64,000 nucleotides of DNA from Neorhizobium petrolearium (GTDB lineage: Bacteria > Pseudomonadota > Alphaproteobacteria > Rhizobiales > Rhizobiaceae). The position numbers and the translations under genes were made by a program. A model generated the notes under the pieces. That model had not been told where the DNA came from and did not search any database. It worked only from the letters and a program-made list of their open reading frames with translations. The stretch covers positions 62,001 to 126,000 of the forward strand of contig NZ_JAGGJW010000002.1 of NCBI RefSeq assembly GCF_017873175.1. Reading direction: 5' to 3'. Shown here piece by piece: positions 2,637 through 63,283 of the stretch (position 1 is the stretch's first letter; each line of letters begins with the position of its first letter).

Positions 2637-2661
2637 AACACGGGTTTTGCCCAAAAGTTCC
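2637..2661 (-). promoter_or_regulatory. Possible EcfG-type promoter of gcd
   Basis: Minus strand shows GGAAC (2661-2657), 16 nt, then TGTT (2640-2637), matching GGAAC-N18-TT. It lies about 70 nt upstream of the gcd start. The -10 differs from CGTT at one base and the leader is long, so this is one of the weaker sites. Confidence 0.35.
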
Positions 2662-2695
2662 AATGGATATTGGACAACCTTTTCCGTCGACTTCC

Positions 2696-2720
2696 GGAAC
2701 CGCCGGACATCGAACTGGTT
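2696..2720 (+). promoter_or_regulatory. EcfG-type promoter of udgX-GST
   Basis: GGAAC (2696-2700), 16 nt, GGTT (2717-2720). It fits GGAAC-N18-TT and ends 25 nt before the udgX start, leaving a short leader with the ribosome site GAAGGGAG. Confidence 0.6.
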
Positions 2721-2745
2721 TGGCGCCCATGAAGGGAGTTCCGTC

Positions 2746-3381
2746 ATGTTGACGTCGCGCAAGGGCCCCGCCTTCGAGACAACCGGTGCAGAAGGCTCAA
2801 GCATTTCCAGGGTCAGGGAAGAGGCGGAAAGCTGCACCCGTTGCGATCTCTACAAGAGCGCCACTCATCTCGTCTTCGGAAAAGGGCCGGCAAGAGCGAA
2901 GGTTCTTTTCGTTGGCGAACAGCCGGGCGACAGGGAAGATCAGGCCGGACAGCCTTTTGTCGGCCCTGCCGGCAAGCTGCTCGACCGGTGCCTCGAGGAG
3001 GCCGGCATCGATCGCGACATGTGTTACGTCACCAATGCAGTGAAACACTTCAAGTTCACGCTGCGTGGCAAGCGGCGCATCCATTCAAAACCGAAGACCG
3101 GAGAGGTGCAGGCCTGCGCCTGGTGGCTGGCAGCGGAATTGCGCCTCATCAAGCCGACACTGGTAGTGGCGCTTGGCGCGACTGCGCTCTATTCTCTGCT
3201 GGGCAGACAGGCAAAAGTCACGCGTGACCGCGGCAAGGTCCTGAATTCGCCGAACGGTGTGCCCATGCTTGTGACGTTTCACCCCTCGGCCTTGCTGAGG
3301 AGCCGGGATCGGGCGGATGCGGAACTCAACCGTGCCCGCTTTGTCGAGGATCTGAGGAAAATTGCCGATTTTCTGGAGTGA
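2746..3381 (+). CDS. udgX: UdgX-type uracil-DNA glycosylase
   Basis: This 211-aa protein belongs to the UDG superfamily with an iron-sulfur cluster. It has the nucleotide-pocket motif GEQPG at residues 57-61, the C-x2-C pair at 30/33, a C-terminal HPSALLR motif, and the insertion loop KRRIH at 109-113. That loop is diagnostic of UdgX, in which the histidine (here His113) forms a covalent bond to the uracil-derived abasic site instead of simply excising the base. The reading frame is open further upstream, but ATG 2746 has a clear ribosome site (GAAGGGAG) 7 nt before it and matches the family's N-terminus. It overlaps the ribosome site of the next gene, so the two are likely co-transcribed from the promoter at 2696. 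Role: tight uracil capture in DNA repair. Confidence 0.9.
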   Translation: MLTSRKGPAFETTGAEGSSISRVREEAESCTRCDLYKSATHLVFGKGPARAKVLFVGEQPGDREDQAGQPFVGPAGKLLDRCLEEAGIDRDMCYVTNAVKHFKFTLRGKRRIHSKPKTGEVQACAWWLAAELRLIKPTLVVALGATALYSLLGRQAKVTRDRGKVLNSPNGVPMLVTFHPSALLRSRDRADAELNRARFVEDLRKIADFLE

Positions 3382-3383
3382 TC

Positions 3384-4112
3384 ATGGCTTACGAACTTTA
3401 TTACTGGGACGGTCTCCAGGGGCGCGGCGAATTCGTGCGGCTGGCTTTGGAAGAGGCCGGCGCCAAATATGTGGATGTCGCCCGATCGAGCCACGGCATG
3501 TCGGCGATGATGGCGTATCTGAATGGCAAGCAAGGGTATCTGGCAATGCCTTTTGCGCCTCCCTTTCTGAAGGACGGCGATATCGTCGTCTCGCATGTGG
3601 CAAATATCCTCCATTATCTCGGGCCGAAGCTGAACCTCGTGCCCAGGGAGGAGAAAAGCCGCATCTTCATCCATGGCCTTCAGCTTACCCTGACGGATTT
3701 TGTCGCGGAAGCGCATGACACGCACCACCCGATCAGCACCACAGACTATTACGAGGATCAGAAGGAAGAGGCGAAGGCCCGCACACAGGCCTTCCTGCGG
3801 CAGAGGGTGCCGAAATTTCTGGGCTATTTCAACCATGTCATCCAGGCAAACCGGGCAAAGAACGGTCACACCGTCGGTGACGCCCTGAGCTATGCCGATC
3901 TATCGCTCTTCCAGATCGCCGAGGGGCTCGCCTACGCCTTTCCCCGTGCCATGCGGAACTTCGACAGGGATTATCCGGATGTCGCGAAGTTGCGCGACCT
4001 CGTCCGGAAGCGTCCCAATATCGAGGCTTATGTCAATTCGAAGCGCCGGCTCGCATTCAACGACTCGGGCATATTCAGGCACTATCCGGAATTGGACCAG
4101 GACCCGGCCTGA
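3384..4112 (+). CDS. Glutathione S-transferase family protein
   Basis: This 242-aa protein has a GST thioredoxin-fold N-terminus (YELYYWDGLQGRGEFVRLAL) followed by an all-helical C-terminal domain with the HxxG-like segment around SYADLSLFQIAEGL. It resembles sigma/pi-like GSTs in which an N-terminal Tyr (YYW) activates glutathione. It starts at ATG 3384, 2 nt after the udgX stop, with the ribosome site CTGGAG inside the udgX end; a GTG at 3378 in frame is less well placed. Co-transcription with udgX suggests detoxification of oxidised or electrophilic products under stress. The substrate cannot be read from the sequence. Confidence 0.85.
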   Translation: MAYELYYWDGLQGRGEFVRLALEEAGAKYVDVARSSHGMSAMMAYLNGKQGYLAMPFAPPFLKDGDIVVSHVANILHYLGPKLNLVPREEKSRIFIHGLQLTLTDFVAEAHDTHHPISTTDYYEDQKEEAKARTQAFLRQRVPKFLGYFNHVIQANRAKNGHTVGDALSYADLSLFQIAEGLAYAFPRAMRNFDRDYPDVAKLRDLVRKRPNIEAYVNSKRRLAFNDSGIFRHYPELDQDPA

Positions 4113-4116
4113 TGGC

Positions 4117-4623
4117 TTAGGTCGTCTCTTCGCCCAATTCCTGCAGGATCTGATGCCGGGCCCGGTTGAGCCGGCTTTTGACCGTACCGACCGCGCAATC
4201 GCAGATTTCGGCCGCCGCCTCGTAGCTCTCGCCAAGAATAGCCACCAGCGTCAGCACCTCGCGATAATGCGGCGGCAGCTTCTGGAGCGCGCGCTGCACC
4301 TCCCTCGCCCGCGCGGCCATTTCCTGCGATGCGGCTACCGCCGTATCGCCCGAAACGTTTTCCTCGATTCCCGGTGCCTCACGTCCCAGCACCTTGGCGC
4401 GCGTGTAGAACGTGTTGCGCATGATCGTGAAGAGCCAGCTTTTGAGCTTGGTGCCCGGCTCGAACTTGTCGAGATTGGCGAGCGCCTTCATCAGCGTTTC
4501 CTGCACCAGATCGTCCGCATCGGTGGGATTGCGGCAGAAGGTACGGGCAAAGGCGCGGAGAGCCGGAATGAGCCTCACTATGTCTGCACGTGCGAGATCA
4601 CCATTCAACTGTGATTCAGACAC
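4117..4623 (-). CDS. EcfG-type (general stress) ECF sigma factor
   Basis: This 168-aa two-domain sigma factor has region 2 at about residues 15-80 (DADDLVQETLMKAL, then FEPGTKLKSWLFTIMRNTFY) and region 4 at 105-160 (YEAAAEICDCAVGTVKSRLNRAR). The wording of both regions is that of the alphaproteobacterial EcfG/RpoE2 group (ECF15). The start is GTG 4623, preceded by GGAGAGG. An exact EcfG promoter (4671-4696) precedes it, so autoregulation is expected. Unlike the principal locus, no phyR adjoins it; a NepR-like gene is 5 kb away at 9817. It is probably a second EcfG paralogue. It is divergent from ku, which has a related promoter in the same intergenic gap. Confidence 0.85.
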   Translation of the reverse strand: MSESQLNGDLARADIVRLIPALRAFARTFCRNPTDADDLVQETLMKALANLDKFEPGTKLKSWLFTIMRNTFYTRAKVLGREAPGIEENVSGDTAVAASQEMAARAREVQRALQKLPPHYREVLTLVAILGESYEAAAEICDCAVGTVKSRLNRARHQILQELGEETT

Positions 4624-4670: not shown

Positions 4671-4696
4671 AACGCGCGCCTTGCGCATTTGGTTCC
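4671..4696 (-). promoter_or_regulatory. EcfG-type promoter of the ECF sigma gene (exact match)
   Basis: Minus strand GGAAC (4696-4692), 17 nt, CGTT (4674-4671). This is an exact match to the EcfG consensus, about 48 nt before the sigma-factor start, implying autoregulation or control by a paralogue. Confidence 0.75.
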
Positions 4697-4728: not shown

Positions 4729-4754
4729 GGAACAAAGCGGCTGGCAGGCCGGTT
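4729..4754 (+). promoter_or_regulatory. EcfG-type promoter of ku-ligD
   Basis: GGAAC (4729-4733), 17 nt, GGTT (4751-4754), fitting GGAAC-N19-TT. It ends 25 nt before the ku start. Confidence 0.6.
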
Positions 4755-4779
4755 GATAGGTTTTCACGGAGTTATGATC

Positions 4780-5640
4780 GTGGCACCGCGTGCGAACTGG
4801 AAAGGTTATCTCAAAATCGGGGAGCTGAGCTGCCAGGTAGGGCTTTATACGGCCGCTTCCACATCCGACCGCGTCAGTTTCCATATCATCAATCGGGAGA
4901 CCGGCAACCGCGTCCACCGCCAGATGATTGATGCCGACACCGGCAAGCCAGTGGAAAGCGACGACATCGTCAAGGGCTACGAAATTTCAAGCGGCGAATA
5001 CGTCTTCCTCGAACCGGACGAAGTGAAGGCGGCGATACCCGAAAGCGACAAGACGCTCGAACTCGAAACCTTCATCCCCTGCGATGGAGTGGACACGATC
5101 TATCTCGACCGCCCCTATTACTTGATGCCTGTGGACAGGCCGTCCGCCGAGGTGTTTGCGCTGATCCGCAAGGCGCTGGAAGAAAAGAGCGTCGCAGCAC
5201 TGGCCCGCACGGTTCTCTTCCGGCGCCTGCGGACGTTGCTTATCCGTCCGAGCGAAAGCGGTATGATCGCCAGTACGCTCAACTATGAATACGAGGTGCG
5301 ACCCGCCAAGGAAATCTTCTCCGATATCAAGGACTTCAAGATCGAGGGCGAAATGCTGGACCTTGCCGGACACATCATCGAAACCAAGCGCGGAAAATTC
5401 GACCCGACCGAATTCGACGACCGTTACGAGGCGGCCCTCGCCGAACTCGTCAGAGCGAAGATCGAAGGCCGCAAGCTGAAGAAGAAGCCCAAGCCGGAAG
5501 TCAAGAAAGTGTCGAACCTGCTTGACGCGCTCCGCCAGAGCGCCGGCGCTCCCGACAAGCGGAAGAAGACGACCGCCAAGAAGACCGCCTCCAGGGCAAC
5601 CTCGCGTAAGACGACCACCCCCCAGAGAAAGGCCGGCTGA
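4780..5640 (+). CDS. ku: Ku protein, NHEJ DNA-end binding (first copy)
   Basis: This 286-aa bacterial Ku forms the ring that loads on double-strand break ends and recruits LigD. It begins APRANWKGYLKIGELSC, the classical Ku core start, and runs through the beta-barrel core to about residue 240. A basic tail rich in Lys, Thr and Arg follows (KKTTAKKTASRATSRKTT), typical of DNA-binding C-terminal extensions. GTG 4780 is preferred: ACGGAG lies 8 nt upstream and homologues start at APRANW; the ATG at 4774 is only 2 nt from that ribosome site. It is followed after 2 nt by ligD, clearly one operon, with an EcfG-type promoter at 4729. Confidence 0.93.
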   Translation: MAPRANWKGYLKIGELSCQVGLYTAASTSDRVSFHIINRETGNRVHRQMIDADTGKPVESDDIVKGYEISSGEYVFLEPDEVKAAIPESDKTLELETFIPCDGVDTIYLDRPYYLMPVDRPSAEVFALIRKALEEKSVAALARTVLFRRLRTLLIRPSESGMIASTLNYEYEVRPAKEIFSDIKDFKIEGEMLDLAGHIIETKRGKFDPTEFDDRYEAALAELVRAKIEGRKLKKKPKPEVKKVSNLLDALRQSAGAPDKRKKTTAKKTASRATSRKTTTPQRKAG

Positions 5641-5642: not shown

Positions 5643-8165
5643 ATGGCGCTTGAAACCTACCACCAGAAGCGAAACTTCAAGGTTTCTCCCGAACCACGAG
5701 GAAAGGTATCTCGCACCCGCAAGACAAAGGCGACCGGCAACAGTTTCGTGATCCAGAAGCACGACGCGACCAGGCTGCATTACGATTTCCGGCTGGAAAT
5801 GGATGGCGTGCTGAAAAGCTGGGCCGTGACCCGCGGTCCGAGCCTCGTACCCGGCGAAAAACGTCTTGCGGTCCATGTGGAAGACCACCCCCTCGATTAT
5901 GGCGGCTTCGAGGGCATGATCCCGGAAAGCAATTACGGTGCCGGCGCGGTGCTGCTCTGGGATCGCGGCGCCTGGGAGCCGATCGGCGATCCGCACAAGG
6001 CCTACCGGAAAGGCCGCATGGAATTCGAATTGAAAGGCGAGAAGCTGGAAGGCCGCTGGCATCTCGTCCGCATGGGGCAGAGGCAAGGCGAGAAACGCGA
6101 AAACTGGCTGCTGATCAAAGGCGAAGACGAGTTCGCCCGCGACGAAGGCGACCCTGACATTCTCGAAGAAATGCCGCTTTCCGTGAAAACCGGCAAGACG
6201 ATCGAGGAGGTCTGGGGCAGGAAGCGGCCGGCAAAAAAGGCGCGCTCGAAAACGAAAACCCGGACCGATCCAGACCCGCAAGACACCGACATCGCGGTTT
6301 CGAAGATCCGGGGTGCGAAGAAGGGCAAGCTGCCGGATTTCATCGAACCGCAGCTTGCGACGCTGGTCAAAAGCGCCCCTTCCGGAAAACGCTGGGTCCA
6401 CGAGATCAAGATCGACGGCTATCGGCTTCAGGCACATATTGAAAACGGCAAGGTGACGCTGCTCACCCGAACCGGCCTCGACTGGACCCACAAGTTCGGT
6501 AAGGAGATCGTTGCAGCATTCGCGAAGCTTCCGGTCTCCGAGGCCATCATCGACGGCGAGGTGGCGGTCGAAGCAGGCTCCGGCGCGACGGATTTCTCGC
6601 TGCTCCAGCAGGCTCTCAGCGAGGGCCACACCGATCACTTCACCTTCTATGCCTTCGACCTTCTTCATCTCGACGGTTATGACCTGACCGGCGCAACCTT
6701 GCTCAGGCGCAAGGAAGCGCTTGAAACACTGCTTGCCGACAGCGGCTCGGTGCTGCGCTACAGCGAGCATTTCAGCGACGAGGGCGCGCTGGTGCTGAAA
6801 CATGCCTGCCGGCTGAGCCTGGAGGGCATCATTTCGAAAATCGCCGATGCCCCTTACCGTCCCGGTCGCGGGCGCGATTGGGTCAAATCGAAATGCTCGG
6901 CAAGACAGGAATTCGTAGTTGCGGGTTACGTTCCCTCCTCCGTCAACCGCAAGGCGATCGGTTCGCTGGTCATGGGTTATTATGAGAAGGGAAAGCTTCG
7001 TCATGCCGGCCGTGTCGGCACGGGCTACTCCAATACCGTGGCGCAATCGCTCTTCAAGCGGGTCAACGGCATTCGAAGCGACAAGAGCCCATTTGACGAA
7101 AAGCTCGCAGCAGTGGAAAAGAAGGATGTCGTCTTCGTCAGACCAGAACTGGTGGCGGAAGTCGAGTTTCGCGGCTGGACGGCGGATGCCCATATCCGCC
7201 ACGCCTCTTTCAGAGGTCTGAGGGAAGACAAGGATCCGAAGGATATCGTCCGGGAGGGCGGGCCTGTGAATGCAGCGGAAGAACCGACACCGCCCAAGCG
7301 GACGGTCAATCTCACCCATCCGGATCGGGTGTACTGGCCGGATGCCGGAGTGACCAAGGCGGGGCTCGCGGACTACTATACCGAGGTCTGGCGGCTGATG
7401 GCGCCTTTCGTTGTCAACCGGCCGCTGGCGCTCGTTCGCGGGCCGGACGGAATTACCAAACCACTGTTTTTCCAGAAGCACGCCTGGAAAGGCATGACGA
7501 AAAATGTGGTTCTGGTGAAGGATCCCGCCGACCCGAGCGAGGAATATATCTCCATCCGCGACCTCGACGGGCTGCTCGGGCTCGTGCAGGGCGGGACACT
7601 GGAAGTCCATCCCTGGGGGGCATCGCTCAATGATTGGGAAAAGCCGGATATGGTCAATATCGACCTCGATCCCGGTGAAGGCGTTTCATGGACGGAGATC
7701 ATCGCCGCGGCCCACGAAGTGAAACGGCGCTTCGAGGACATGGGCCTCGCGCCCTTCGTCAAAACGTCCGGCGGCAAGGGCCTGCACGTCGTCGCCCCCG
7801 TGAAGCCCAAGGCGGAATGGCCTGAGGTGAAGGCTGCGATGAAGGCGCTCGCCGACGGCATGGCCGGTGATGACCCGGACAAATACGTCTCGACCATCAC
7901 CAAGTCGAAACGCAAGGGCAAGATCCTGATCGACTACCTGCGCAACGGCCGAGGCAACACCGCGGTCGCCCCCTATTCCACTCGCGCGCGGCCGGGTGCG
8001 CCCGTCTCCATGCCGCTCGCCTGGGACGAGCTCGGCGGCGTGATCGGCCCCAACTATTTCACGGTCAACAACACCTCGACGCGGATTGCCCGGCAGGCGA
8101 GCGATCCTTGGGCTGATTTTCGCAAGGCGGAAGCGCCGATCGAGTTCAAGGTGAAGAAGAGATAG
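5643..8165 (+). CDS. ligD: Multifunctional NHEJ DNA ligase LigD (PE-LIG-POL)
   Basis: This 840-aa protein has all three LigD modules. The 3'-phosphoesterase domain (~res 1-190) carries HDATRLHYDFRLEMDG. The ATP-dependent ligase domain (~225-540) has the nucleotidyl-acceptor motif KIDG at 256-259. The archaeo-eukaryotic-primase-type polymerase domain (~555-840) begins LTHPDRVYWPDAG and carries the metal motif DLDPGEG. The order PE-LIG-POL matches Agrobacterium and Pseudomonas LigD. Lys-rich linkers separate the modules (KRPAKKARSKTKT around 200). It starts at ATG 5643, 2 nt after ku. It seals double-strand breaks with Ku, filling and trimming the ends. Confidence 0.96.
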   Translation: MALETYHQKRNFKVSPEPRGKVSRTRKTKATGNSFVIQKHDATRLHYDFRLEMDGVLKSWAVTRGPSLVPGEKRLAVHVEDHPLDYGGFEGMIPESNYGAGAVLLWDRGAWEPIGDPHKAYRKGRMEFELKGEKLEGRWHLVRMGQRQGEKRENWLLIKGEDEFARDEGDPDILEEMPLSVKTGKTIEEVWGRKRPAKKARSKTKTRTDPDPQDTDIAVSKIRGAKKGKLPDFIEPQLATLVKSAPSGKRWVHEIKIDGYRLQAHIENGKVTLLTRTGLDWTHKFGKEIVAAFAKLPVSEAIIDGEVAVEAGSGATDFSLLQQALSEGHTDHFTFYAFDLLHLDGYDLTGATLLRRKEALETLLADSGSVLRYSEHFSDEGALVLKHACRLSLEGIISKIADAPYRPGRGRDWVKSKCSARQEFVVAGYVPSSVNRKAIGSLVMGYYEKGKLRHAGRVGTGYSNTVAQSLFKRVNGIRSDKSPFDEKLAAVEKKDVVFVRPELVAEVEFRGWTADAHIRHASFRGLREDKDPKDIVREGGPVNAAEEPTPPKRTVNLTHPDRVYWPDAGVTKAGLADYYTEVWRLMAPFVVNRPLALVRGPDGITKPLFFQKHAWKGMTKNVVLVKDPADPSEEYISIRDLDGLLGLVQGGTLEVHPWGASLNDWEKPDMVNIDLDPGEGVSWTEIIAAAHEVKRRFEDMGLAPFVKTSGGKGLHVVAPVKPKAEWPEVKAAMKALADGMAGDDPDKYVSTITKSKRKGKILIDYLRNGRGNTAVAPYSTRARPGAPVSMPLAWDELGGVIGPNYFTVNNTSTRIARQASDPWADFRKAEAPIEFKVKKR

Positions 8166-9319: not shown

Positions 9320-9603
<284 letters not shown>

Positions 9604-9816: not shown

Positions 9817-9996
9817 ATGGCGAAGCAAAACACTCCGGTTGAGGAACAGGAAGTCAGGATGGGAAGGCGCGTGAACCGCCGGGTCTCGGTCCTGCTCGCC
9901 GAAATCGAGAAGGAAGAAATCCCCGATCGTCTGCTCGAACTGGCGCGCGAGCTGCAGAAGGCGCTCAACGAAAAGATGGGCAGCCCTGCCGGCTGA
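9817..9996 (+). CDS. NepR-like small protein (possible anti-sigma factor)
   Basis: This 59-aa protein is helical and charged. Residues ~14-46 read as NRRVSVLLAEIEKEEIPDRL followed by LELARELQKALNEK. The pattern E-x-IPDRLLEL with a preceding amphipathic helix resembles the core of NepR, the anti-sigma factor that binds EcfG and is released by phosphorylated PhyR (there, E-P-[IV]-PDR-[FL]-LDLL). The start is ATG 9817 with AGAGGTCGGG upstream. I found no EcfG box directly upstream. The match is by eye and the Pro before IPDR is replaced, so it may instead be an unrelated small helical protein. Partner candidates are the sigma factor at 4117 or a paralogue elsewhere. Confidence 0.5.
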   Translation: MAKQNTPVEEQEVRMGRRVNRRVSVLLAEIEKEEIPDRLLELARELQKALNEKMGSPAG

Positions 9997-10004: not shown

Positions 10005-10334
10005 TCAAAGTTGGGTCGAGATCAGATTGTCGGTGCGCACCCGGCCTGCCACGACACCTCTCGGGCCCTCCGCCTCGTAACGTCCGCTCCCATCCTCGAG
10101 CACCGTATAGAGCTTTTCGTTGCGGAAGGCGCTTGCCATTCCGGTCGAGTTACCTTCCGAAGGTGAAGCGTCGATCTCGGTAAAATCGAGCTCCGCCGCA
10201 CTCGCGACGAGGCGCGCGTCACCCGCGGTTCTGGCCCGGACCACCACCTCGCCGTGCGGCGGCGAATTCTGCCAGTTCGGGTCATCGGGAGCCGCGTTCG
10301 GCACCAGCCGATAGATCTTCAGCTTTTCCTGCAT
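10005..10334 (-). CDS. Conserved hypothetical protein
   Basis: This 109-aa cytoplasmic protein has no recognised catalytic motif. It contains the segment GEVVVRARTAGDARLVASAA, which in many rhizobial hypothetical proteins pairs with a C-terminal beta-rich part (YTVLEDGSGRYEAEGPRG). The sequence suggests a small beta domain handling a charged surface, but no function can be assigned. The start is ATG 10334 with GGGAGAGAG immediately upstream; the frame extends further 5' without support. An exact EcfG promoter at 10374-10398 drives it, divergent from the hydrolase gene at 10473. Confidence 0.75.
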   Translation of the reverse strand: MQEKLKIYRLVPNAAPDDPNWQNSPPHGEVVVRARTAGDARLVASAAELDFTEIDASPSEGNSTGMASAFRNEKLYTVLEDGSGRYEAEGPRGVVAGRVRTDNLISTQL

Positions 10335-10373: not shown

Positions 10374-10398
10374 AACGTTCTCGGTCAGGCCCGGTTCC
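10374..10398 (-). promoter_or_regulatory. EcfG-type promoter of the 10005-10334 gene (exact match)
   Basis: Minus strand GGAAC (10398-10394), 16 nt, CGTT (10377-10374): exact consensus, 40 nt before the start codon. Confidence 0.75.
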
Positions 10399-10410: not shown

Positions 10411-10436
10411 GGAACTTTTGCCGCCGCTTTTCTGTT
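10411..10436 (+). promoter_or_regulatory. EcfG-type promoter of the isochorismatase-family gene
   Basis: GGAAC (10411-10415), 17 nt, TGTT (10433-10436), matching GGAAC-N19-TT. It lies 13 nt from the divergent promoter at 10374-10398. Confidence 0.5.
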
Positions 10437-10472
10437 CCTGACCACCGTGGAAGTTTTCTATTCCTGACAAGT

Positions 10473-11349: not shown

Positions 11350-11374
11350 GGAACCTTCGTGGCACCTCGTCGTT
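11350..11374 (+). promoter_or_regulatory. EcfG-type promoter of the DUF892 gene at 11429 (exact match)
   Basis: GGAAC (11350-11354), 16 nt, CGTT (11371-11374): exact consensus, 54 nt before the start codon. Confidence 0.75.
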
Positions 11375-12270: not shown

Positions 12271-12295
12271 GGAACTTTTCTGCGCTGCACACGTT
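12271..12295 (+). promoter_or_regulatory. EcfG-type promoter of the DUF2934 gene (exact match)
   Basis: GGAAC (12271-12275), 16 nt, CGTT (12292-12295): exact consensus, 27 nt before the start codon. Confidence 0.75.
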
Positions 12296-12818: not shown

Positions 12819-12844
12819 GGAACATTGGCCATGGCCGAAATGTT
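12819..12844 (+). promoter_or_regulatory. EcfG-type promoter of glgA
   Basis: GGAAC (12819-12823), 17 nt, TGTT (12841-12844), matching GGAAC-N19-TT, 35 nt before the glgA start. Confidence 0.5.
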
Positions 12845-17783: not shown

Positions 17784-17808
17784 AACTTTCGACCGGGCTG
17801 ATTGTTCC
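17784..17808 (-). promoter_or_regulatory. Possible EcfG-type promoter of the 17753/17472 pair
   Basis: Minus strand GGAAC (17808-17804), 16 nt, AGTT (17787-17784), fitting GGAAC-N18-TT, 30 nt before the start codon. Confidence 0.45.
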
Positions 17809-18184: not shown

Positions 18185-18209
18185 GGAACTAGAATGCCGC
18201 TTTCACGTT
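18185..18209 (+). promoter_or_regulatory. EcfG-type promoter of the 25-codon ORF at 18240 (exact match)
   Basis: GGAAC (18185-18189), 16 nt, CGTT (18206-18209): exact consensus in a gap with no larger gene to serve, 31 nt before a small ORF. Confidence 0.7.
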
Positions 18210-24091: not shown

Positions 24092-24116
24092 AACACGCAA
24101 GCCGGAATTTTGTTCC
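24092..24116 (-). promoter_or_regulatory. EcfG-type promoter of the oxidase operon
   Basis: Minus strand GGAAC (24116-24112), 16 nt, TGTT (24095-24092), fitting GGAAC-N18-TT, 61 nt before subunit II. Confidence 0.45.
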
Positions 24117-24157: not shown

Positions 24158-24182
24158 GGAACGAATTCGCCACAGCGGGGTT
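24158..24182 (+). promoter_or_regulatory. EcfG-type promoter of the 24230-pfpI pair
   Basis: GGAAC (24158-24162), 16 nt, GGTT (24179-24182), fitting GGAAC-N18-TT, 48 nt before the first start codon. Confidence 0.55.
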
Positions 24183-26151: not shown

Positions 26152-26177
26152 AACGACAAGCATATCAACTTCGTTCC
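26152..26177 (-). promoter_or_regulatory. EcfG-type promoter of topoisomerase IB (exact match)
   Basis: Minus strand GGAAC (26177-26173), 17 nt, CGTT (26155-26152): exact consensus. The -10 lies only 9 nt before the start codon, predicting a leaderless or near-leaderless transcript. Confidence 0.7.
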
Positions 26178-26194: not shown

Positions 26195-27904
26195 TCAGAT
26201 CACGATGTCCTTGAGGCTTTCTGTACCTTCGCCCCGCTCGAAAGACGAACGTGGCGCAGTCAGCATCCAGCAGAGCCCCTCGGACCGGAAATCCACGTCG
26301 ACCTGCCCTGAAAAAGCTGCGGCCGCATGGCGCTTGATGATCGTCGTGCCGAAACCGGTCCGTGACGGCTCGTGGACCGGTGGGCCATCCCTTTCTTCCC
26401 ATACCAGCCGGAGATTGGGTTCGCTACCGGTCTCGTCGAGCACGTCCTTCCAGGCGATACGGACCTTGCCCTGCGGCACGGAAAGAGCCCCATACTTCAC
26501 GGAATTTGTGGCAAGCTCATGCAGGATGAGGCCGAGATTCTGCACCGCCTCGGCCTTCAATATGAAATCCGCGCCTTGCAACTCTACCCGGTCGGCCACT
26601 TCGGCAAAGGTGCTCATATGGATTTCCACCACGCGCCGGATCGACACCCCGGCCCACTGCTCCTTCGCGAGCGCCTCGATCGATTTCCCGAGGCCCTGCA
26701 AACGGTTGCCGATCGCCTTCTGGAATTCCTCCATCGTGGTGTCCTTCCGCGCGAGCTGGCGCATCATCGCCTGGACGAGCGTGAGGATGTTCTTCGTACG
26801 GTGCACGAGTTCATGCAGGATAAGGTGGATGCGGTCCTCTGCCTGGCTGCGGTCGAAAGAAGCATTCGAAAGCGCGATGGCCACCTGATTCGCTTCCCTG
26901 ATCTTTGTCTCCACCGGAGACACGATCTCGCCCTTGCCGATACGTTCGGCCATTTCCGCGATCTGCCGGATCGGGATGCGAAGCTGACGACCGACAAGCC
27001 AGGCGATCAGCATGCCGACGGCAAGGAAAACAGCGCCACCCGAGATCAACTGCCGCCATGTGGTCAGAATGCTCGCCTGCGCCGCATCGATCGGTCCCCA
27101 GACTACGGCCTTCCATGTCCAGCCGGTGATCTGCGCATAACCGTACATCTGCTTCAACTCGCCATCGACATCCTCGATCGTTCCCTTGAAGCCGGTCATC
27201 AGCTTGAGCGTATCGGCCGGGAAGGCCGTGCCCGACGACAACGCATGGGCACCCAAAGAGGTGACCACGTGTCCCGAACCGTCAACGATGGCGACCGTCC
27301 AGCCCTCTGAAAGCCCTTCAGTGGAGATGAGCTTCTGCAGGTCCTCGGCATTCTGGGTGATGATCATTGCCGCGCCCGAGGCGGAAACCTCCCTGGGCAG
27401 CGGCATGCTGATATTGAAAACGTGCTTTCCGCTGGTGGTGCCGAAAAAGACGTTGGAAGCCTCGGTCACGCGGCGACTGAGCACCGATTCGAGCGCCGGC
27501 ATGTTGGATACCTTGCCGAGCGGCGTCCCGAAAGGCAGGCGTGTGTTGAGCTGCTGCTGGCCCGCGGCATCGACCAGGATGACATAGAGTGAATTCGACC
27601 GCAGGCTGTTCTGTGTCCTGTTGTGGAAGGCGCGCAGATCGCGCCTTTCCAGTTCAGGGGACGTGACGAGCAGCCGAAGCGTCGTTGCCATGTCCTGCAA
27701 TTCGCGATCTATCGATCGCGCAATAAGCTGCGCATCCTCGGCTGTCTCGTTCGCCAGGATTTCGCGTTCGTTCGCCTCGAGCTCCATCATCAGATAGGCG
27801 ACGAAAACCAGCAAAGGCAACGCAACGCCGACAGCGAGCGCAACCAGATAAGCGCCGATGGGCGCAGTCGGGAAAAACCGCGAAACCCTCATCATTCCGC
27901 GCAT
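26195..27904 (-). CDS. HWE-family sensor histidine kinase
   Basis: This 569-aa protein has a membrane helix at ~16-38, a periplasmic sensor of ~240 residues (PDC/Cache-like, since QQQLNTRLPFGTPLGKVS and related blocks look like double-Cache folds), a second helix at ~285-308 and a HAMP region. The kinase core has the H-box ELVHRTKNILTLVQAMMRQL (His368) and the LVWEERDGPPV block with the W-x-E signature of HWE kinases. No receiver domain is attached. HWE/HisKA_2 kinases are the usual activators of PhyR, so it may feed the general stress response, but that is inference from family and position. No response regulator is adjacent. Confidence 0.88.
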   Translation of the reverse strand: MRGMMRVSRFFPTAPIGAYLVALAVGVALPLLVFVAYLMMELEANEREILANETAEDAQLIARSIDRELQDMATTLRLLVTSPELERRDLRAFHNRTQNSLRSNSLYVILVDAAGQQQLNTRLPFGTPLGKVSNMPALESVLSRRVTEASNVFFGTTSGKHVFNISMPLPREVSASGAAMIITQNAEDLQKLISTEGLSEGWTVAIVDGSGHVVTSLGAHALSSGTAFPADTLKLMTGFKGTIEDVDGELKQMYGYAQITGWTWKAVVWGPIDAAQASILTTWRQLISGGAVFLAVGMLIAWLVGRQLRIPIRQIAEMAERIGKGEIVSPVETKIREANQVAIALSNASFDRSQAEDRIHLILHELVHRTKNILTLVQAMMRQLARKDTTMEEFQKAIGNRLQGLGKSIEALAKEQWAGVSIRRVVEIHMSTFAEVADRVELQGADFILKAEAVQNLGLILHELATNSVKYGALSVPQGKVRIAWKDVLDETGSEPNLRLVWEERDGPPVHEPSRTGFGTTIIKRHAAAAFSGQVDVDFRSEGLCWMLTAPRSSFERGEGTESLKDIVI

Positions 27905-57425: not shown

Positions 57426-57938
57426 CTATCTCTTGGCCATAAGGTCGCGTTCGTCCCGCATCAGAAATATGCGAGTGATCGGATCGAGATTGGCTTCCAG
57501 CCAGTCTGCCATGGCAATTTCTTCCGCGAGGATGCGCTCGAAGACGGCTTTCGCCTCCATCTCTTCGAGTTCGTCGGCTGCAGCAATCAACACGCGATAG
57601 CTGGCTATTTCCAGATGCTCGAACGCATAGCTCGTCATCGCTCCCCTGACGACCTCGTCGCTGGTAAGCATGCCGCCGACACCCTGGGCCTTCGCGGCAA
57701 GCTTCGCCGCCATGTCCTTGAGCGTCGCTGCGCCGGTCCAACCCGATAGATGGTCAAGCAGGTCCTTCAAGGCCTGCGCATGCGCCTCCGTTTCATGAAG
57801 ATGCTGGACGATCCTGGCCTTGAGGTCGGGGTAGCTCTCTATCCGGCGCGATTGGTCGGTCAGCATGGTGACCGCCTGTTCCTCCATAGCATGGGCCGCG
57901 CGAAGCCATGCCAGGAAATTGTCTCGAGCATGTGCCAT
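57426..57938 (-). CDS. Ferritin-like protein, DUF892-type (second copy)
   Basis: This 170-aa four-helix protein is related to the gene at 11429 (AHARDNFLAWLRAAHAMEEQ at the start, H-E-T-E motif in HLHETEAHAQALKDLLDHLS, and AFEHLEIASYRVLIAAADEL). ATG 57938 is preferred because GAGGA lies 7 nt upstream; the frame extends further 5' without support. I did not find an EcfG box directly upstream. The gap 57939-58255 holds only the possible mini-ORF and the promoter at 58205. Confidence 0.8.
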   Translation of the reverse strand: MAHARDNFLAWLRAAHAMEEQAVTMLTDQSRRIESYPDLKARIVQHLHETEAHAQALKDLLDHLSGWTGAATLKDMAAKLAAKAQGVGGMLTSDEVVRGAMTSYAFEHLEIASYRVLIAAADELEEMEAKAVFERILAEEIAMADWLEANLDPITRIFLMRDERDLMAKR

Positions 57939-58060
57939 TCCCATTTCCTCGCAAAACCGGTTTCCCGCTCGGCAGACGGATGGCAAGCAGTTTACTAGCC
58001 ATAAGGGCAAGATCATGACACGGACAACCGGAACGAACTCAAATCCTCGGAGCCAATATT

Positions 58061-58204: not shown

Positions 58205-58229
58205 GGAACAATCACCATGCCGGACGGTT
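58205..58229 (+). promoter_or_regulatory. EcfG-type promoter of the 58256 gene
   Basis: GGAAC (58205-58209), 16 nt, GGTT (58226-58229), fitting GGAAC-N18-TT, 27 nt before the start codon. Confidence 0.6.
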
Positions 58230-58255: not shown

Positions 58256-58438
58256 ATGATGCCTGATCCTCGCGAACCCAGCGAACAGCCGCCAATGCCG
58301 GCGCCTGTCTGGACCCCGGAGCCTCCGATCGAGGAACCGGAACCGGATCGTCTGCCGGATGAGGTGCCGGTGCCCAATCCTGATGAGAATCCCAACCCGC
58401 CAGCCCACATGCCGCCGGGCAACCCAACCGCACATTAA
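58256..58438 (+). CDS. Small Pro-rich protein
   Basis: This 60-aa protein is about one-third Pro, with acidic residues (MPAPVWTPEPPIEEPEPDRL). It has no signal peptide or membrane helix and is likely disordered. The start ATG 58256 (or 58259) has GGGAG 8 nt upstream. It is driven by an EcfG-type promoter and probably cotranscribed with the next small gene. Confidence 0.65.
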   Translation: MMPDPREPSEQPPMPAPVWTPEPPIEEPEPDRLPDEVPVPNPDENPNPPAHMPPGNPTAH

Positions 58439-58725: not shown

Positions 58726-58751
58726 GGAACAAAGGATAAAATTCACACGTT
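58726..58751 (+). promoter_or_regulatory. EcfG-type promoter of the PLD gene (exact match)
   Basis: GGAAC (58726-58730), 17 nt, CGTT (58748-58751): exact consensus. It rules out translation starts upstream of about 58758. Confidence 0.75.
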
Positions 58752-58782
58752 TCCTTATCAATTACACGACGAGGTGGTTGAG

Positions 58783-60288
58783 GTGGATACGAAGACACGA
58801 TCGCTTTCTTTTCAGGAATCCATATTCAAATTCGAGCCCATCATCCGGCCGGGCCGCAACGCCTGGCGTAGCGCTATGGCGGAAAAGCTCGCCTTCCTTA
58901 TCGACGGCGAGAATTATTTCTACCGGCTGGACCAGGTGTTGCGCCAAGCCAAGAGTTCGCTCTTCATCATCGGCTGGGATTTCAATCCCAACATCGTGTT
59001 GAGGCCCCACGATCCGGACGGAGAGACACTTGGTGGTCTTCTTCGCAAGCTGGTCGATGAAAAGCCCGCGCTCGAAATCCGCATCCTCGTCTGGGGCATG
59101 GGACCGGTCTATTCCGGCAAGAGCCTGAAGATTTTCGGCAAGATGGAATGGAGCGACCATCCCCGTATCTTTCTGCATTTCGATTTCGATCATCCGCTTC
59201 GCGCCAGCCATCACCAGAAGATCGTCGCCATCGACGACAACACGGCCTTCCTCGGCGGCATCGACCTGACGGCCCGCCGCTGGGACGACCGCAGCCATGC
59301 AGCTACAAATCCCCTGCGCTGCTCGCCAGATGGCACACCCTATGGACCGCTCCACGACATACAAACCATCATAACAGGCGATATCGCGCGATTGATCGGC
59401 GATGTGGCGCGACGGCGCTGGAAGAAGGCCACCGGCGAAGTCCTCACTCCCCAGCATATTCCCGGTGAAAAGCCTTGGCCGGCGGATCTCGAACCGGCGC
59501 TGACCCATTGCAGTACCGGCCTTGCCCTCACAGAACCGTGGAGGTGGAAAGGCCGCCTCGGCCACCGTGAAGCGATCCGCCTGACCCATGACGCGCTGCG
59601 CACCGCCAGGCGACATCTCTACATAGAGACCCAATACCTGGCCTCCTTTAGCGTGGCCCGCACCCTTGCCAGACGGCTCCGCCGGGCCGACAGCCCGGAG
59701 GTCGTCGTCATCGTCACCCGTGAATCCCACGGCTTCCTGGAGAAGCTGATGATGGGGCACAACCGAAACCGTCTGATCCGCCGTCTGAAGCGGGCCGACC
59801 GACACGGCCGGCTGCGTGTGTTCTATGCCGCCGTACCGGACGGCAAAGGCGGCGAACGGGAGATCATCGTGCATTCCAAGGTGATCATCGTCGATGATCG
59901 TTTCGCGCGTGTCGGATCGTCCAATCTGAACAATCGCTCGGAGGGACTGGACACAGAATGCGATCTTGCCGTCGAGACCGCCGATCCTGCCGGCCGGCAG
60001 GCCATCGCTGCTCTGCGCAACGACCTCCTGGCGGAACATCTCGATGCCGAACCGGCCGAAGTGGCACGGATCATCAACGAAACAGGCTCCATGCTGGCAG
60101 CTATCGACAGGCTTAACGTCAAGCCGCGCGGCTTGCGATCCTTCGATATCGATCCCGAAAAAGGCGAGACCGAATCCATGGTCGGCACCGGTATCATCGA
60201 TCCGAAACAGCCCTTCTGGCCGATTCCCCTGATCCGAAGCGGACTTCGGAACTTCTTCTCCAGTCTGTCACATCACCGTCTGTTCTGA
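58783..60288 (+). CDS. Phospholipase D family protein, cardiolipin synthase-like (ClsB/YbhO type)
   Basis: This ~501-aa protein has two HKD motifs: HHQKIVAIDD (His ~144) and HSKVIIVDD (His ~364). This is the catalytic pair of cardiolipin synthase and phosphatidyltransferases. The middle carries TRESHGFLEKLMMGHNRNRL. GTG 58783 is chosen since the exact EcfG promoter lies inside the longer open frame. Together with the YbhN-like and YbhP-like genes that follow it matches the E. coli clsB-ybhN-ybhP neighbourhood, so cardiolipin or related lipid synthesis under stress is likely. Its end overlaps the ybhN end by 21 nt. Confidence 0.85.
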   Translation: MDTKTRSLSFQESIFKFEPIIRPGRNAWRSAMAEKLAFLIDGENYFYRLDQVLRQAKSSLFIIGWDFNPNIVLRPHDPDGETLGGLLRKLVDEKPALEIRILVWGMGPVYSGKSLKIFGKMEWSDHPRIFLHFDFDHPLRASHHQKIVAIDDNTAFLGGIDLTARRWDDRSHAATNPLRCSPDGTPYGPLHDIQTIITGDIARLIGDVARRRWKKATGEVLTPQHIPGEKPWPADLEPALTHCSTGLALTEPWRWKGRLGHREAIRLTHDALRTARRHLYIETQYLASFSVARTLARRLRRADSPEVVVIVTRESHGFLEKLMMGHNRNRLIRRLKRADRHGRLRVFYAAVPDGKGGEREIIVHSKVIIVDDRFARVGSSNLNNRSEGLDTECDLAVETADPAGRQAIAALRNDLLAEHLDAEPAEVARIINETGSMLAAIDRLNVKPRGLRSFDIDPEKGETESMVGTGIIDPKQPFWPIPLIRSGLRNFFSSLSHHRLF

Positions 60289-61209
60289 ATACCTGCCGCC
60301 CCGATGGCGATAATAGGCTTCAGTCACGATGAAGATCGGCACGCCGATTGTCAGCGGCACGAAAAAATAGAGCACCCGGAAGGCGACCAGAGCGCCGATC
60401 GAGGCGGCCGACGGCAGGATGCCGAGCATCGTCGCCTCAAGGACTCCGAGCCCGCCCGGCACATGGCTGATGAGGGCAGCGATATTCGCGGTCACGTAAG
60501 CGCTCGCCACTTCAAGATAACCTGCGTCGGTGAACGTCGAGAGAAGCTGGCGGATCGCGGCGGCTACGCATGCAAAATTGAGCGCGCCAATGACGATCTG
60601 GCCTAGGGCAATTCTTGCTCCCGGCGGCTCGAAACGCCATGTCCGCAAGTGGAGAGGCCGGCGTACAAAGCCGCAAAGCAACAGATAAGCCGCCGGTATG
60701 GCAAGACAGAGGAGGCTCACGGCGATCCTCGCCCGGCCACCAAGCCCGATAAGGTTCGGCTCATCGCCCCGCTGCAGCAACAAGGCCAGACCGGCAAGCG
60801 TCGCAAGCCCCAGCCCGACCGTTATCCCGCAGAAGATGATGACCTTCGCAACCTCCTCGGCCGTCAGCCCCCAGCGCGAATAGAACCGATAGCGCACGGC
60901 GCCGCTGCTCAGGGCTGCAAGTCCGACATTGTGCCCGATAGAAAGCGCTGTGAACGAAGCAAGCGCCGTCTGCCGGTAGGCAAGCTGCTTGCCGGTGTAA
61001 AGCACTGCGAGGGTATCGAAGCCGGTCAGGCAGAGATAAGAGAGGACGACAAAGGAAAAGGCCGAAGCCAGCCGGAAACCGGCAATCGACTGGACCGATT
61101 CCTCGATTTCATCGAGGGTATAGCGGCCCAGGCTGCGATAGACGAGGAAGATTGCCAGGCAAATCGCCGCGCCGACGAGGAGCCTCACCATGTAACGTCT
61201 GAAGGTCAT
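60268..61209 (-). CDS. UPF0104 / YbhN-like membrane protein
   Basis: This 313-aa protein has about eight membrane helices and the blocks GFDTLAVLYTGKQLAYRQTA and SHVPGGLGVLEATMLGIL. These are conserved in the lysylphosphatidylglycerol-synthase membrane domain family (flippase-like, no synthase domain). It likely helps lipid handling with the PLD-type enzyme. The gene is inverted relative to its partners, and its end overlaps the PLD gene tail. The exact EcfG promoter at 61243 drives it. Confidence 0.85.
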   Translation of the reverse strand: MTFRRYMVRLLVGAAICLAIFLVYRSLGRYTLDEIEESVQSIAGFRLASAFSFVVLSYLCLTGFDTLAVLYTGKQLAYRQTALASFTALSIGHNVGLAALSSGAVRYRFYSRWGLTAEEVAKVIIFCGITVGLGLATLAGLALLLQRGDEPNLIGLGGRARIAVSLLCLAIPAAYLLLCGFVRRPLHLRTWRFEPPGARIALGQIVIGALNFACVAAAIRQLLSTFTDAGYLEVASAYVTANIAALISHVPGGLGVLEATMLGILPSAASIGALVAFRVLYFFVPLTIGVPIFIVTEAYYRHRGGRYSEQTVM

Positions 61210-61240: not shown

Positions 61241-61265
61241 GGAACGAAAAACCGGCAAAGGTGTT
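61241..61265 (+). promoter_or_regulatory. EcfG-type promoter of the ybhP-like gene, overlapping the ybhN promoter
   Basis: GGAAC (61241-61245), 16 nt, TGTT (61262-61265), matching GGAAC-N18-TT. It is face to face with the minus-strand promoter. Its -10 is only ~9 nt before ATG 61275, so it would give a near-leaderless mRNA. Confidence 0.5.
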
Positions 61266-61267
61266 CC
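61243..61267 (-). promoter_or_regulatory. EcfG-type promoter of the ybhN-like gene (exact match)
   Basis: Minus strand GGAAC (61267-61263), 16 nt, CGTT (61246-61243): exact consensus. It overlaps the plus-strand site almost completely, so each -35 box sits on the opposite promoter's -10. Confidence 0.7.
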
Positions 61268-61274: not shown

Positions 61275-62027
61275 ATGAACGATCCGATAGTTCCGCCATC
61301 CTTCGACGGGCCTCGTCTGAAAATCCTGAGCTACAACGTCCACAGCTGCATCGGCACCGATCGCCAGCTTGACCCTGCGCGAGTGGCCGAAGTCATCGCA
61401 ACTGTGGAACCCGATATCATTGGATTGCAGGAACTGGATGTCGGCCGCAGCCGCACCGGCGGCGTTGATCAGGCTCATGCCATCGCCTCTCTGCTGCGCA
61501 TGGAATTCCATTTCCATCCAGCTCTCAACGTCGCTGAAGAACGTTATGGAGACGCCATCCTGACTGCTTTACCGGCAAGGATGATCAAGGGCGCAGGCCT
61601 GCCCTCCGTTGGCGAACCGCGTGGTGCGATATGGGTGGAGATCAAGGTCGGCGATCATTGCCTGCAGGTGGTCAATACGCATCTCGGACTGCGCGGCCGT
61701 GACCGGCTCAGCCAGATCAGCACGCTTCTCGGCCCCTCCTGGCTCGGGAGTCCCGCTTGCCATCGGAAACCTCGTATCCTGATCGGAGACTTCAATTCCA
61801 CCCCGTCTACCGCCACCTACAAAATCGTCGCCCGCCGGATGGCCGACGTACAATCTCGTTTGAAGGCAAAACCCAGGGCAACCTTCCCTTCACGTTACCC
61901 GCTGTTGAGGATAGACCACATCTTCGTTTCCAGCGAGGTCACGCCGGTAGACGTACAGGTCATTTCGACGCCGCTGACGCGCCGCGCCTCCGATCACCTA
62001 CCGCTTCTGACGACCATCCGTTTATGA
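61275..62027 (+). CDS. Endonuclease/exonuclease/phosphatase family protein (YbhP-like)
   Basis: This 250-aa EEP-fold protein has LKILSYNVHSCIGTDR, the metal motif QELDVGR, GDFNSTPSTATY and SDHLPLLTTI (catalytic His). The family hydrolyses phosphate esters in nucleic acids or lipids. In E. coli its homologue ybhP adjoins clsB. ATG 61275 matches the family start; no ribosome site is obvious. It ends 2 nt before the convergent phosphoribosyltransferase gene. Confidence 0.88.
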   Translation: MNDPIVPPSFDGPRLKILSYNVHSCIGTDRQLDPARVAEVIATVEPDIIGLQELDVGRSRTGGVDQAHAIASLLRMEFHFHPALNVAEERYGDAILTALPARMIKGAGLPSVGEPRGAIWVEIKVGDHCLQVVNTHLGLRGRDRLSQISTLLGPSWLGSPACHRKPRILIGDFNSTPSTATYKIVARRMADVQSRLKAKPRATFPSRYPLLRIDHIFVSSEVTPVDVQVISTPLTRRASDHLPLLTTIRL

Positions 62028-62029
62028 TT

Positions 62030-62710
62030 TCAATGGATCATCCGGTTCAGCCTTCGGGCTTCCTTCAGGAGACGCACGACATCCTGATCCGTCGTTTCCG
62101 GGAAATCGGCATAATGCGCGCTCACCGCCTCGAGGTGCTGCGGCGCAGACAGGCAGACGATGTCATCGACCTCTTCCCGCAGGGATTCCACAAGATCGCG
62201 CGGCGCGACGGGCACGGCGATCCGGATCGAGCCGACGCCCATTTCCTTCAGCGCATGGATGCCGGCACGGATCGAGTTCCCGTTGGCAATGCCGTCATCG
62301 ACCAGAATGATATCTCGGCCCGCCTGATCGTGGTCCTGGGGCTCATCTTCACCGAAATATATGCGGTGCCGGCGTTCAATCTCGGCCAACTGATGCTCCC
62401 GCTCGGTGGCGAGATATCCCGGTGGGATCTGGAAACGGCGGGCAGCCTCTTCGCTCACCACCACATGTGGTTCCTTGCCGTCGACCACCGCCCCGATACC
62501 ATATTCCGGATGGCCGGGTGCCCCGATCTTACGCACGATCAGGAGGTCAAGCGGCGCTCCCAGCCGCTGTGCGATCTCGAAGGCGACGGGCACACCGCCG
62601 CGAGGAAGTGCCACAACGACAGGATCCTGAAGCTGCACCGACTGCATCGCTTCCGCAAGCTGCCTGCCGGCATCTTCGCGATCGGAAAACGCGGGGGCCA
62701 AACCGGGCAT
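62030..62710 (-). CDS. Phosphoribosyltransferase family protein
   Basis: This 226-aa type-I PRTase-fold protein has the PRPP motif DIILVDDGIANGNSIRAG (~140-160). It also has the family blocks VVALPRGGVPVAFEIAQRLG and LLIVRKIGAPGHPEYGIGAV of predicted PRTases of unknown substrate. ATG 62710 follows GGAGGAAG at 5 nt; upstream in-frame ATGs at 62728 and 62803 are weaker. It could be in one transcript with the 62903-63172 gene. Confidence 0.82.
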   Translation of the reverse strand: MPGLAPAFSDREDAGRQLAEAMQSVQLQDPVVVALPRGGVPVAFEIAQRLGAPLDLLIVRKIGAPGHPEYGIGAVVDGKEPHVVVSEEAARRFQIPPGYLATEREHQLAEIERRHRIYFGEDEPQDHDQAGRDIILVDDGIANGNSIRAGIHALKEMGVGSIRIAVPVAPRDLVESLREEVDDIVCLSAPQHLEAVSAHYADFPETTDQDVVRLLKEARRLNRMIH

Positions 62711-62902
62711 GTCTTCCTCCCATAGCATGGCGGCGCGACCGCGGGCCACGCCTCCTGTTTCCTCCGGCACCAAGAGCATAACCACCACAGGGATGTGCGG
62801 CAACCTTAAGGCCGGTTTTAACTCCGATACGCAGCACCAGACGCCGCCATCCTTGCTATGTTCGCAGTTATGCTCCCGGCTGCAGCATGGAACTGCAGTC
62901 GC

Positions 62903-63172
62903 TCAGTGCTTCGACCGGGACACGAACTTGTTGAAGCGGCTGGTCTTTCCGGCCTCCGTTTCGTCCTGATAAAGGAAGGCGAGTTTGTTCTTGTCGAAGA
63001 TCGAGAAGAAATCGTTCCATTCGATCTTCTCCAACTCTTCCTCCGGCTTGCCGAAGTCGACACGCAGGATGCCGCCTTCCCTGGCGCCCTTGACGCGGGC
63101 CAGGTGAGCGCCGCGGTCTTCGATCCACTGCCGGATTTCAGTGTGGTCCGTGGTCTCCAAGGCTTTGCTCAT
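62903..63172 (-). CDS. Conserved hypothetical protein, often mislabelled as branching enzyme
   Basis: This 89-aa protein contains IRQWIEDRGAHLARVKGARE and FLYQDETEAGKTSRFNKFVS, the complete short form of a family of about 90 aa found widely in proteobacteria. It has no glucan-branching catalytic motif. The start is ATG 63172 with GGGAG ~10 nt upstream; the open frame 5' of it is not supported. A GGAAC box lies 30 nt upstream, so it is likely stress-regulated. Confidence 0.8.
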   Translation of the reverse strand: MSKALETTDHTEIRQWIEDRGAHLARVKGAREGGILRVDFGKPEEELEKIEWNDFFSIFDKNKLAFLYQDETEAGKTSRFNKFVSRSKH

Positions 63173-63203
63173 CGCTTTCGTTCTCCCTGTTGGTCGATTG
63201 CAG

Positions 63204-63228
63204 AACCGACGCCGCCGGGGATTGTTCC
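63204..63228 (-). promoter_or_regulatory. EcfG-type promoter of the 62903-63172 gene
   Basis: Minus strand GGAAC (63228-63224), 16 nt, GGTT (63207-63204), fitting GGAAC-N18-TT, 32 nt before the start codon. Confidence 0.6.
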
Positions 63229-63258
63229 GTTTGCGAACACGAGATCGAAATCCAAAAT

Positions 63259-63283
63259 GGAACAAAATTCACGAGTATGTGTT
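63259..63283 (+). promoter_or_regulatory. EcfG-type promoter of the candidate small RNA
   Basis: GGAAC (63259-63263), 16 nt, TGTT (63280-63283), fitting GGAAC-N18-TT. It points into a region with no plus-strand gene. Confidence 0.5.

Follow-up and report, generated by a model that had tools for sequence, protein, structure and literature searches.

About 118 kb of contig C2 of Neorhizobium petrolearium very probably constitutes a clustered general-stress regulon switched on by two sigma factors of the EcfG type. We analyzed a 64,000-nucleotide window (C2:62001-126000) of this 497-kb contig, which belongs to a genome of 6.97 Mb in 64 contigs. The DNA-repair, sugar-storage, respiration, and membrane genes found there are likely co-induced as one stress-survival unit, given their common promoter signature and the adjoining genes for a sigma factor and its predicted inhibitor. 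An EcfG regulon is a known kind of system; the layout, with a second pair made of a sigma factor and a NepR-like protein, is new. A first-pass annotation had already proposed a clustered general-stress regulon, and this proposal is supported at the sequence level by the EcfG consensus, the linkage to phyR, nepR, and ecfG, the intergenic clustering of the sites, their conservation, and the published types of target. The phyR block, the NepR-like gene, and the conservation are additions to that annotation.

Sites were counted with an exact pattern (GGAAC-N16/17-CGTT) and a relaxed one in which the first base of the -10 element is free (GGAAC-N16/17-NGTT). The EcfG1 consensus reported for Rhizobium etli, GGAAC-N16-CGTT, equals the window motif (PMC3892343). 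The window holds nine exact sites, all at the positions and on the strands previously listed, against a mean of 0.93 and a maximum of 3 in 100 dinucleotide shuffles. The relaxed pattern occurs 26 times, with 24 sites in intergenic DNA; the GGAAC-N18/19-TT form in which the earlier count was worded is less specific (107 matches on the contig). The reversed relaxed pattern gave two sites, none intergenic; spacers of 12-13 bases gave none, and spacers of 20-21 bases gave six, three of them intergenic. Between 26.2 and 57 kb of the window, where the first-pass annotation found no site in those promoters of ABC, tct, and polysaccharide genes that it read, there is a single relaxed site, 54070+, which lies within a coding region. 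We infer that the intergenic sites act as promoters.

The genome totals do not favor a regulon: with 105 matches to the exact pattern against 124 to its reversed control, they show no enrichment. The enrichment is instead local and positional. Fifteen of the 105 exact sites fall within C2:5900-123267 (~118 kb; binomial P of 4e-10), and all 15 are intergenic. Relaxed sites number 36 (30 intergenic) in the first 126 kb of C2 and 7 (3 intergenic) in the remaining 371 kb. The corresponding counts for the reversed control are 6 (1 intergenic) and 27 (5 intergenic). Chance matches in intergenic DNA would agree with genome-wide totals that do not exceed the control, but this explanation is hardly conceivable, as it is contradicted by the shuffle counts, the local clustering, the intergenic position, and the conservation at orthologous positions described below. 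Outside C2, 38 of 80 exact sites are intergenic (80 of the 88 such sites were covered), and 30 of these 38 have a same-strand gene within 300 bases. Since many of these intergenic sites precede genes, the regulon is likely genome-wide with a strong concentration on C2, as expected for EcfG. Two other regions, C12:64548-78106 (four intergenic exact sites in 14 kb) and C13:209521-222337 (three in 13 kb), are perhaps further stress blocks.

The regulators on contig C2 are the following.

C2:7796-8551, PhyR (model NF006623, 372 bits against a cut-off of 240)
C2:8811-8912, NepR (58 bits against a Pfam cut-off of 25.7)
C2:8939-9505, canonical EcfG sigma factor (NF009169, 355 bits against a cut-off of 321)
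Window 4117..4578, minus strand, extracytoplasmic function (ECF) sigma factor of the EcfG type, paralogue of the canonical EcfG (Pfam Sigma70_r2, Sigma70_r4_2, and PhyR_sigma2)
Window 9817..9996, plus strand, NepR-like protein of 59 residues, predicted anti-sigma partner of the window EcfG paralogue
Window 26195..27904, minus strand, dCache HWE-type histidine kinase (Pfam HWE_HK and dCache_1)

The genome has two hallmarks of an EcfG regulon, namely, PhyR, NepR, and EcfG themselves and promoters of the GGAAC-N16/17-CGTT type upstream of genes. The phyR/nepR/ecfG block lies about 57 kb from the window sigma gene on their common contig, and five exact sites surround it between C2:5900 and 11884. 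The window sigma has ECF regions 2 and 4, matches PhyR_sigma2 with 52 bits (cut-off, 27), and is 45% identical to the canonical sigma; its best PDB match is 5uxx_A, an entry in which chain B is NepR. It does not reach the curated NCBIfam cut-offs of the models best matched by the canonical EcfG (155 of 270 bits for NF009198, 145 of 219 for NF009199, and 143 of 321 for NF009169), and for this reason we call it EcfG-type without filing it under these models. HWE/HisKA2 kinases have been named as the input of the general stress response (PMC12148442), and the HWE kinase of the window is a candidate input kinase for PhyR; we found no EcfG-type site upstream of its gene. A second kinase gene, next to phyR (C2:6477-7421), has subthreshold matches to two NCBIfam kinase models, the same two as the window kinase.

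The sites could instead serve another ECF sigma with a similar -35 element, such as one of the ECF26 type, placing the cluster outside the PhyR-controlled response. Targets of RpoE6 and RpoE2 do overlap in Sinorhizobium meliloti (PMC6180224), but a -10 element of CGTT or NGTT at a spacing of 16-17 bases is the published EcfG motif, and phyR and ecfG belong to the same cluster, with exact sites around both. We consider this alternative very improbable.

Conservation was assessed in 18 Rhizobiaceae loci found through LigD (32 loci in all); the nearest named LigD relatives belong to Neorhizobium, Rhizobium, and near genera. Genes and sites recur across the 18 loci, with a rearranged order in L073 and with some genes missing in several. 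The sites of the window fall into two blocks, A and B. For 14 promoters of block A, a relaxed site was present in 203 of 212 orthologous upstream windows, where controls with wrong spacing, reversed orientation, or permuted letters gave 0-4 matches. Two other patterns cannot serve as neutral controls. Divergent pairs are common among the promoters, which brought the opposite-strand pattern to 132 of the 212 windows; GGAAC-N16/17-NTGT was found in 29, probably from TGTT sites matching at the other spacer length. The site of gene 11156-11341 is kept in just 3 of 6 relatives. Spacer and flanking sequences vary, with a mean pairwise identity of ~0.5 (ungapped, computed on site-bearing windows). 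The first base of the -10 element has an identity within promoters of 0.70, against ~0.52 for the spacer; it is fixed in 5 of the 14 promoters and varies freely in others. A division of the -10 elements into two classes, CGTT and other NGTT, may be worth pursuing as a lead. Similar -10 flexibility is reported for EcfG promoters of Sphingopyxis granuli (PMC7083833).

The linkage to phyR is conserved as well. In 17 of the 18 relatives, a single contig carries both phyR and the window sigma gene, 30-66 kb apart; in L066, the two are on different contigs. Long stretches of three relatives, G013, G016, and G017 (which hold L072, L079, and L080), retain sites in the phyR block, block A, and block B. 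The polysaccharide genes between the two blocks (44418-56736) are largely absent from the corresponding place in G013 and G017 and present in G016; because gene presence differs among the three, this stretch looks variable.

The EcfG-type sites of the window, their genes, and their occurrence in relatives are as follows; "all three" refers to G013, G016, and G017.

2637..2661, minus strand, TGTT, before a PQQ-dependent dehydrogenase gene (226-2568, by domain match); present in 16 of 18 relatives
2696..2720, plus strand, GGTT, before udgX (2746-3381; UdgX model TIGR03914 above cut-off); kept in 10 of 11 relatives having the gene
4671..4696, minus strand, CGTT, before the window sigma gene; CGTT with a 17-base spacer in 18 of 18 relatives
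4729..4754, plus strand, GGTT, before ku1 (4774-5640) and then ligD (5643-8165), with Ku and LigD domains; kept in 18 of 18
9320..9344, minus strand, GGTT, before ku2 (8488-9294); back to back with the next site; kept in 18 of 18
9345..9370, plus strand, CGTT, before an open reading frame (ORF) of 66 residues (9403-9603), with the NepR-like gene downstream on the same strand; kept in 17 of 18
10374..10398, minus strand, CGTT, before ORF 10005-10334; kept in 16 of 16
10411..10438, overlapping two-way site, with TGTT on the plus strand before an isochorismatase-like gene (10473-11078) and AGTT on the minus strand toward ORF 10005-10334; plus-strand site kept in 9 of 9 relatives having the gene
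11350..11374, plus strand, CGTT, before a DUF892 gene (11429-11926, by domain match); kept in 18 of 18, with a variable -10 element
12271..12295, plus strand, CGTT, before a DUF2934 gene (12323-12682); CGTT in 18 of 18
12819..12844, plus strand, TGTT, before glgA (12880-14460, by domain match); kept in 16 of 18
17784..17808, minus strand, AGTT, before ORF 17469-17765, which precedes glgX (15083-17160) in the same direction; AGTT in 14 of 14
18185..18209, plus strand, CGTT, before a small hydrophobic ORF of 25 residues (18240-18317); CGTT in 12 of 12 relatives having the ORF
24092..24116, minus strand, TGTT, 199 bases upstream of the called cox2 start, at the head of the cox2-cox1-ctaG-cytochrome c genes (23893-18363); CGTT in G013 and G017, cox genes not found at the corresponding place in G016
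24158..24182, plus strand, GGTT, 289 bases upstream of a pfpI-like gene (24471-25031); at a similar position in all three
26152..26177, minus strand, CGTT, before the topoisomerase IB gene (25034-26143, Topoisom_I domain); at an identical offset in all three
58205..58229, plus strand, GGTT, before an ORF of 60 residues (58256-58438); plus-strand GGTT between the same two neighbors in all three
58726..58751, plus strand, CGTT, before a phospholipase-D-like gene (58774-60288); CGTT site also in all three
61241..61267, overlapping two-way site between a membrane protein gene (60268-61191, minus strand) and gene 61275-62027 (plus strand), including the exact site 61243-; kept in all three
63204..63283, divergent pair, with 63204- (GGTT) before ORF 62903-63172 and 63259+ (TGTT) with an unclear target; both kept in G013 and G017

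Most of the target genes named in the first-pass annotation are indeed preceded by sites. The exceptions are glgX, which has none directly upstream (the nearest, 17784-, is ahead of the small gene 17469-17765), and a second DUF892 gene (57426-58016), which has no match in the window; a site is present there in all three long relatives. Sites that formerly looked like orphans precede the small ORFs 9403-9603, 12323-12682 (DUF2934), 18240-18317, and 58256-58438. Several of these gene types are known from other stress responses: Ku, topoisomerase IB, and GlgX are EcfG dependent in Sphingomonas melonis (PMC6599016), the EcfG regulon of S. granuli includes ku-ligD (PMC7083833), and in Mesorhizobium loti, heat induces three of the four ku genes and one of the three ligD genes (PMC3989490).

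Some features of individual sites deserve mention. At 9320-9370, between ku2 and the 66-residue ORF, the divergent -35 boxes stand back to back as GTTCCGGAAC, an arrangement found in 17 of 18 relatives. The 25-residue ORF is convergent to the cytochrome c gene and is a small-protein candidate. The distance from the end of the topoisomerase IB site to the called start is 9 bases; either the mRNA is nearly leaderless or translation truly begins later. We also considered whether interlocked two-way promoters, GGAAC-N17/18-GTTCC, in which the -10 element of each strand lies inside the -35 element of the other, form a special element. Three occur in the cluster, and the genome holds 12, against 13 control palindromes; across 121 genomes of the family, inspection by eye gave no consistent excess over the control. 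As these counts are not above the control, we rejected the idea. An Rfam scan of the window returned no family at its cut-off.

The 59-residue protein is likely the partner of the window EcfG paralogue, judging from its resemblance to NepR and the company that its gene keeps. Among the NepR matches in the genome, it ranks second (E value of 0.155, with the next one close at 0.735). A profile-profile comparison with NepR aligned 33 columns with an E value of 9.4e-6 and a probability of 83%, both alignments being shallow, and the top two PDB matches of its profile are NepR chains (E values of 0.0098 and 0.017). Thirteen of 14 aligned orthologues list a NepR match (best E value, 0.0016), and several database relatives carry a UniRef name beginning with "anti-sigma factor NepR." The aligned 33-residue core shares with NepR anti-sigma factors (PF18557; RsiA1/RsiA2 and the Methylobacterium extorquens paralogues) the P-D-R pattern and the following leucine; unlike them, the protein falls below the Pfam cut-off and is encoded near an EcfG paralogue instead of at a listed phyR. 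Its profile matches 19 of 199 genomes of the family, 3 from its own genus and 16 from 14 other genera. The match lies within 6.4 kb of an EcfG-type sigma match in 12 of the 16 other-genus genomes, and within 1.2 kb in ten; in G125, the neighboring sigma is not the top sigma match of its genome. Among the phyR matches listed, none coincides in place with any of the 19.

Loci of related sigma factors elsewhere show a similar arrangement. We took the top sigma matches outside the genus, one per genome, giving 20 loci from 14 genera with 6-kb flanks where the contig allowed, and compared them with 19 loci of similar size from the same genomes. The sigma loci contain 91 relaxed sites (28 exact) and the control loci 20 (12 exact), with a paired P of 2e-4; four control patterns gave 21, 16, 15, and 6 matches in the sigma loci. 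The profile detected a NepR-like ORF in 7 of the 20 sigma loci (five with an E value of <1e-7) and in none of the 19 control loci. A set of 12 loci on named plasmids, ten picked in two rounds among 25 listed matches plus two from Sinorhizobium, contains 81 relaxed sites, against 6 for the reversed control; L190 has a single site. A NepR-like ORF is present in 7 of these 12, but the profile used here included sigma-adjacent sequences, two seemingly from Sinorhizobium, so the Sinorhizobium matches are not independent. Annotated genes near the sigma gene include, in Chelatococcus, those for UdgX and DUF892; in Martelella, those for topoisomerase IB and a ferritin-like protein; and in Mesorhizobium jarvisii, one for an HWE kinase.

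A tentative sequence of events can be drawn from these genes. Under stress, HWE-type kinases would phosphorylate PhyR, which would then draw NepR off the canonical EcfG. The freed sigma would start CGTT and NGTT promoters, including that of the second (window) sigma gene, and the second sigma would probably then amplify the response or redirect it. Since the NepR-like gene also lies downstream of an EcfG-type site, its product is predicted to restrain the second sigma, thereby closing a negative feedback loop; whether it is such a brake we judge to be evenly balanced. The assignment of a sigma to each site and the contact between the second sigma and the NepR-like protein are likewise predictions.

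Alternatively, the promoters may be real, with the canonical EcfG as their main reader and the window sigma as a minor paralogue; the NepR-like protein would then bind PhyR and act as a sink for this anti-anti-sigma factor. Overexpression of RpoE5 in S. meliloti raised a single putative target (PMC6180224), and two NepR paralogues of M. extorquens bind PhyR, with binding to EcfG unseen, although the authors allow that it was missed (PMC4814048). However, none of the 18 relatives lacks the window sigma gene or its CGTT promoter, and the NepR-like ORF of other genera accompanies an EcfG-type sigma, not a listed phyR, in the 12 of 16 genomes mentioned above. We regard this alternative as rather unlikely.

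Several further observations weigh against a regulon driven by two EcfG-type sigmas with a dedicated NepR-like inhibitor. Three more genes with an EcfG sigma domain, two on C9 and one on C14, might read the same sites, and ECF groups can share targets, as 67% of the S. meliloti RpoE6 targets are also RpoE2 targets (PMC6180224). The 18 relatives are not phylogenetically independent; since they are kin to each other, the evidence lies in the contrast with the control patterns and not in the raw number. Among the 20 sigma loci of other genera, L204 has no site, L218 is poorer in sites than its control locus, and three (L206, L213, and L218) do not exceed the reversed pattern. The NepR-like protein scores 15.8 bits on Pfam NepR (PF18557), under the gathering cut-off of 25.7, and its gene is 5.2 kb from the window sigma gene, with ku1, ligD, and ku2 between them. 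A NepR-like ORF was not found in 13 of the 20 sigma loci and 5 of the 12 plasmid loci, and it is away from the listed sigma matches in 4 of the 16 other-genus genomes.

Clustering may also be mainly historical: the ancestor of the clade may have acquired, beside phyR, a stress islet that was borne on a plasmid and brought its own EcfG paralogue. Closeness to phyR would then reflect co-inheritance with no further regulatory meaning, an account that is compatible with the regulon and that we hold as a tentative possibility. Genes of the EcfG2 subgroup are plasmid borne in the R. etli study (PMC3892343), the plasmid loci of other genera combine a related sigma with dense sites and the neighbors listed above, and the locus lies on records titled chromosome in two relatives; on the other hand, the linkage to phyR in 17 of 18 relatives suggests some selection. 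More broadly, noncanonical EcfG sigmas may not be orphans. With a divergent NepR-like anti-sigma factor and an islet of EcfG promoters, they could constitute portable general-stress modules, and in the Neorhizobium clade one such module could have become fixed next to phyR, giving a second switch that limits itself, a proposal that in our estimate could go either way. The layout suggests that stress-survival genes (end joining, glycogen, terminal oxidase, and topoisomerase) are heritable as blocks with their own sigma, and the NepR-like gene recurring near extra EcfG sigmas offers a directly testable anti-sigma candidate.

Additional EcfG-like copies are present in about half of all completed genomes of alphaproteobacteria, an occurrence that the R. 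etli study calls not satisfactorily explained (PMC3892343). The system described here shares with the PhyR-NepR-EcfG responses of R. etli (EcfG1/EcfG2) and S. meliloti (RpoE2/RpoE5) the promoter consensus, the three regulators, an additional sigma of the EcfG type, and kinds of target such as ku-ligD, topoisomerase IB, and glgX. It differs in that many of its targets are packed around phyR and the second EcfG, over ~118 kb and clade-wide; our searches of the open-access PMC literature brought up no description of such packing. It also differs in its NepR-like gene: the R. etli study reports no gene for an anti-sigma factor close to ecfG2 and leaves it uncertain whether NepR holds EcfG2 (PMC3892343). 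In the same searches, we found no NepR-like family tied to extra EcfG sigmas beyond one ORF of S. meliloti (PMC6180224). This unannotated RsiA-like ORF beside rpoE5 is probably of the same kind as the NepR-like protein; it abuts the sigma gene, in contrast to the 5.2-kb interval in N. petrolearium. In S. meliloti and S. fredii, the profile built partly from Sinorhizobium-like relatives finds an opposite-strand ORF just after the sigma gene.

Outside the clade, a locus of Devosia sediminis (L091, 794-12514) carries genes resembling cox1, cox2, ctaG, the PQQ dehydrogenase gene, the topoisomerase IB gene, and ku-ligD (34-64% identity) within ~12 kb, and EcfG-type sites are also present there.

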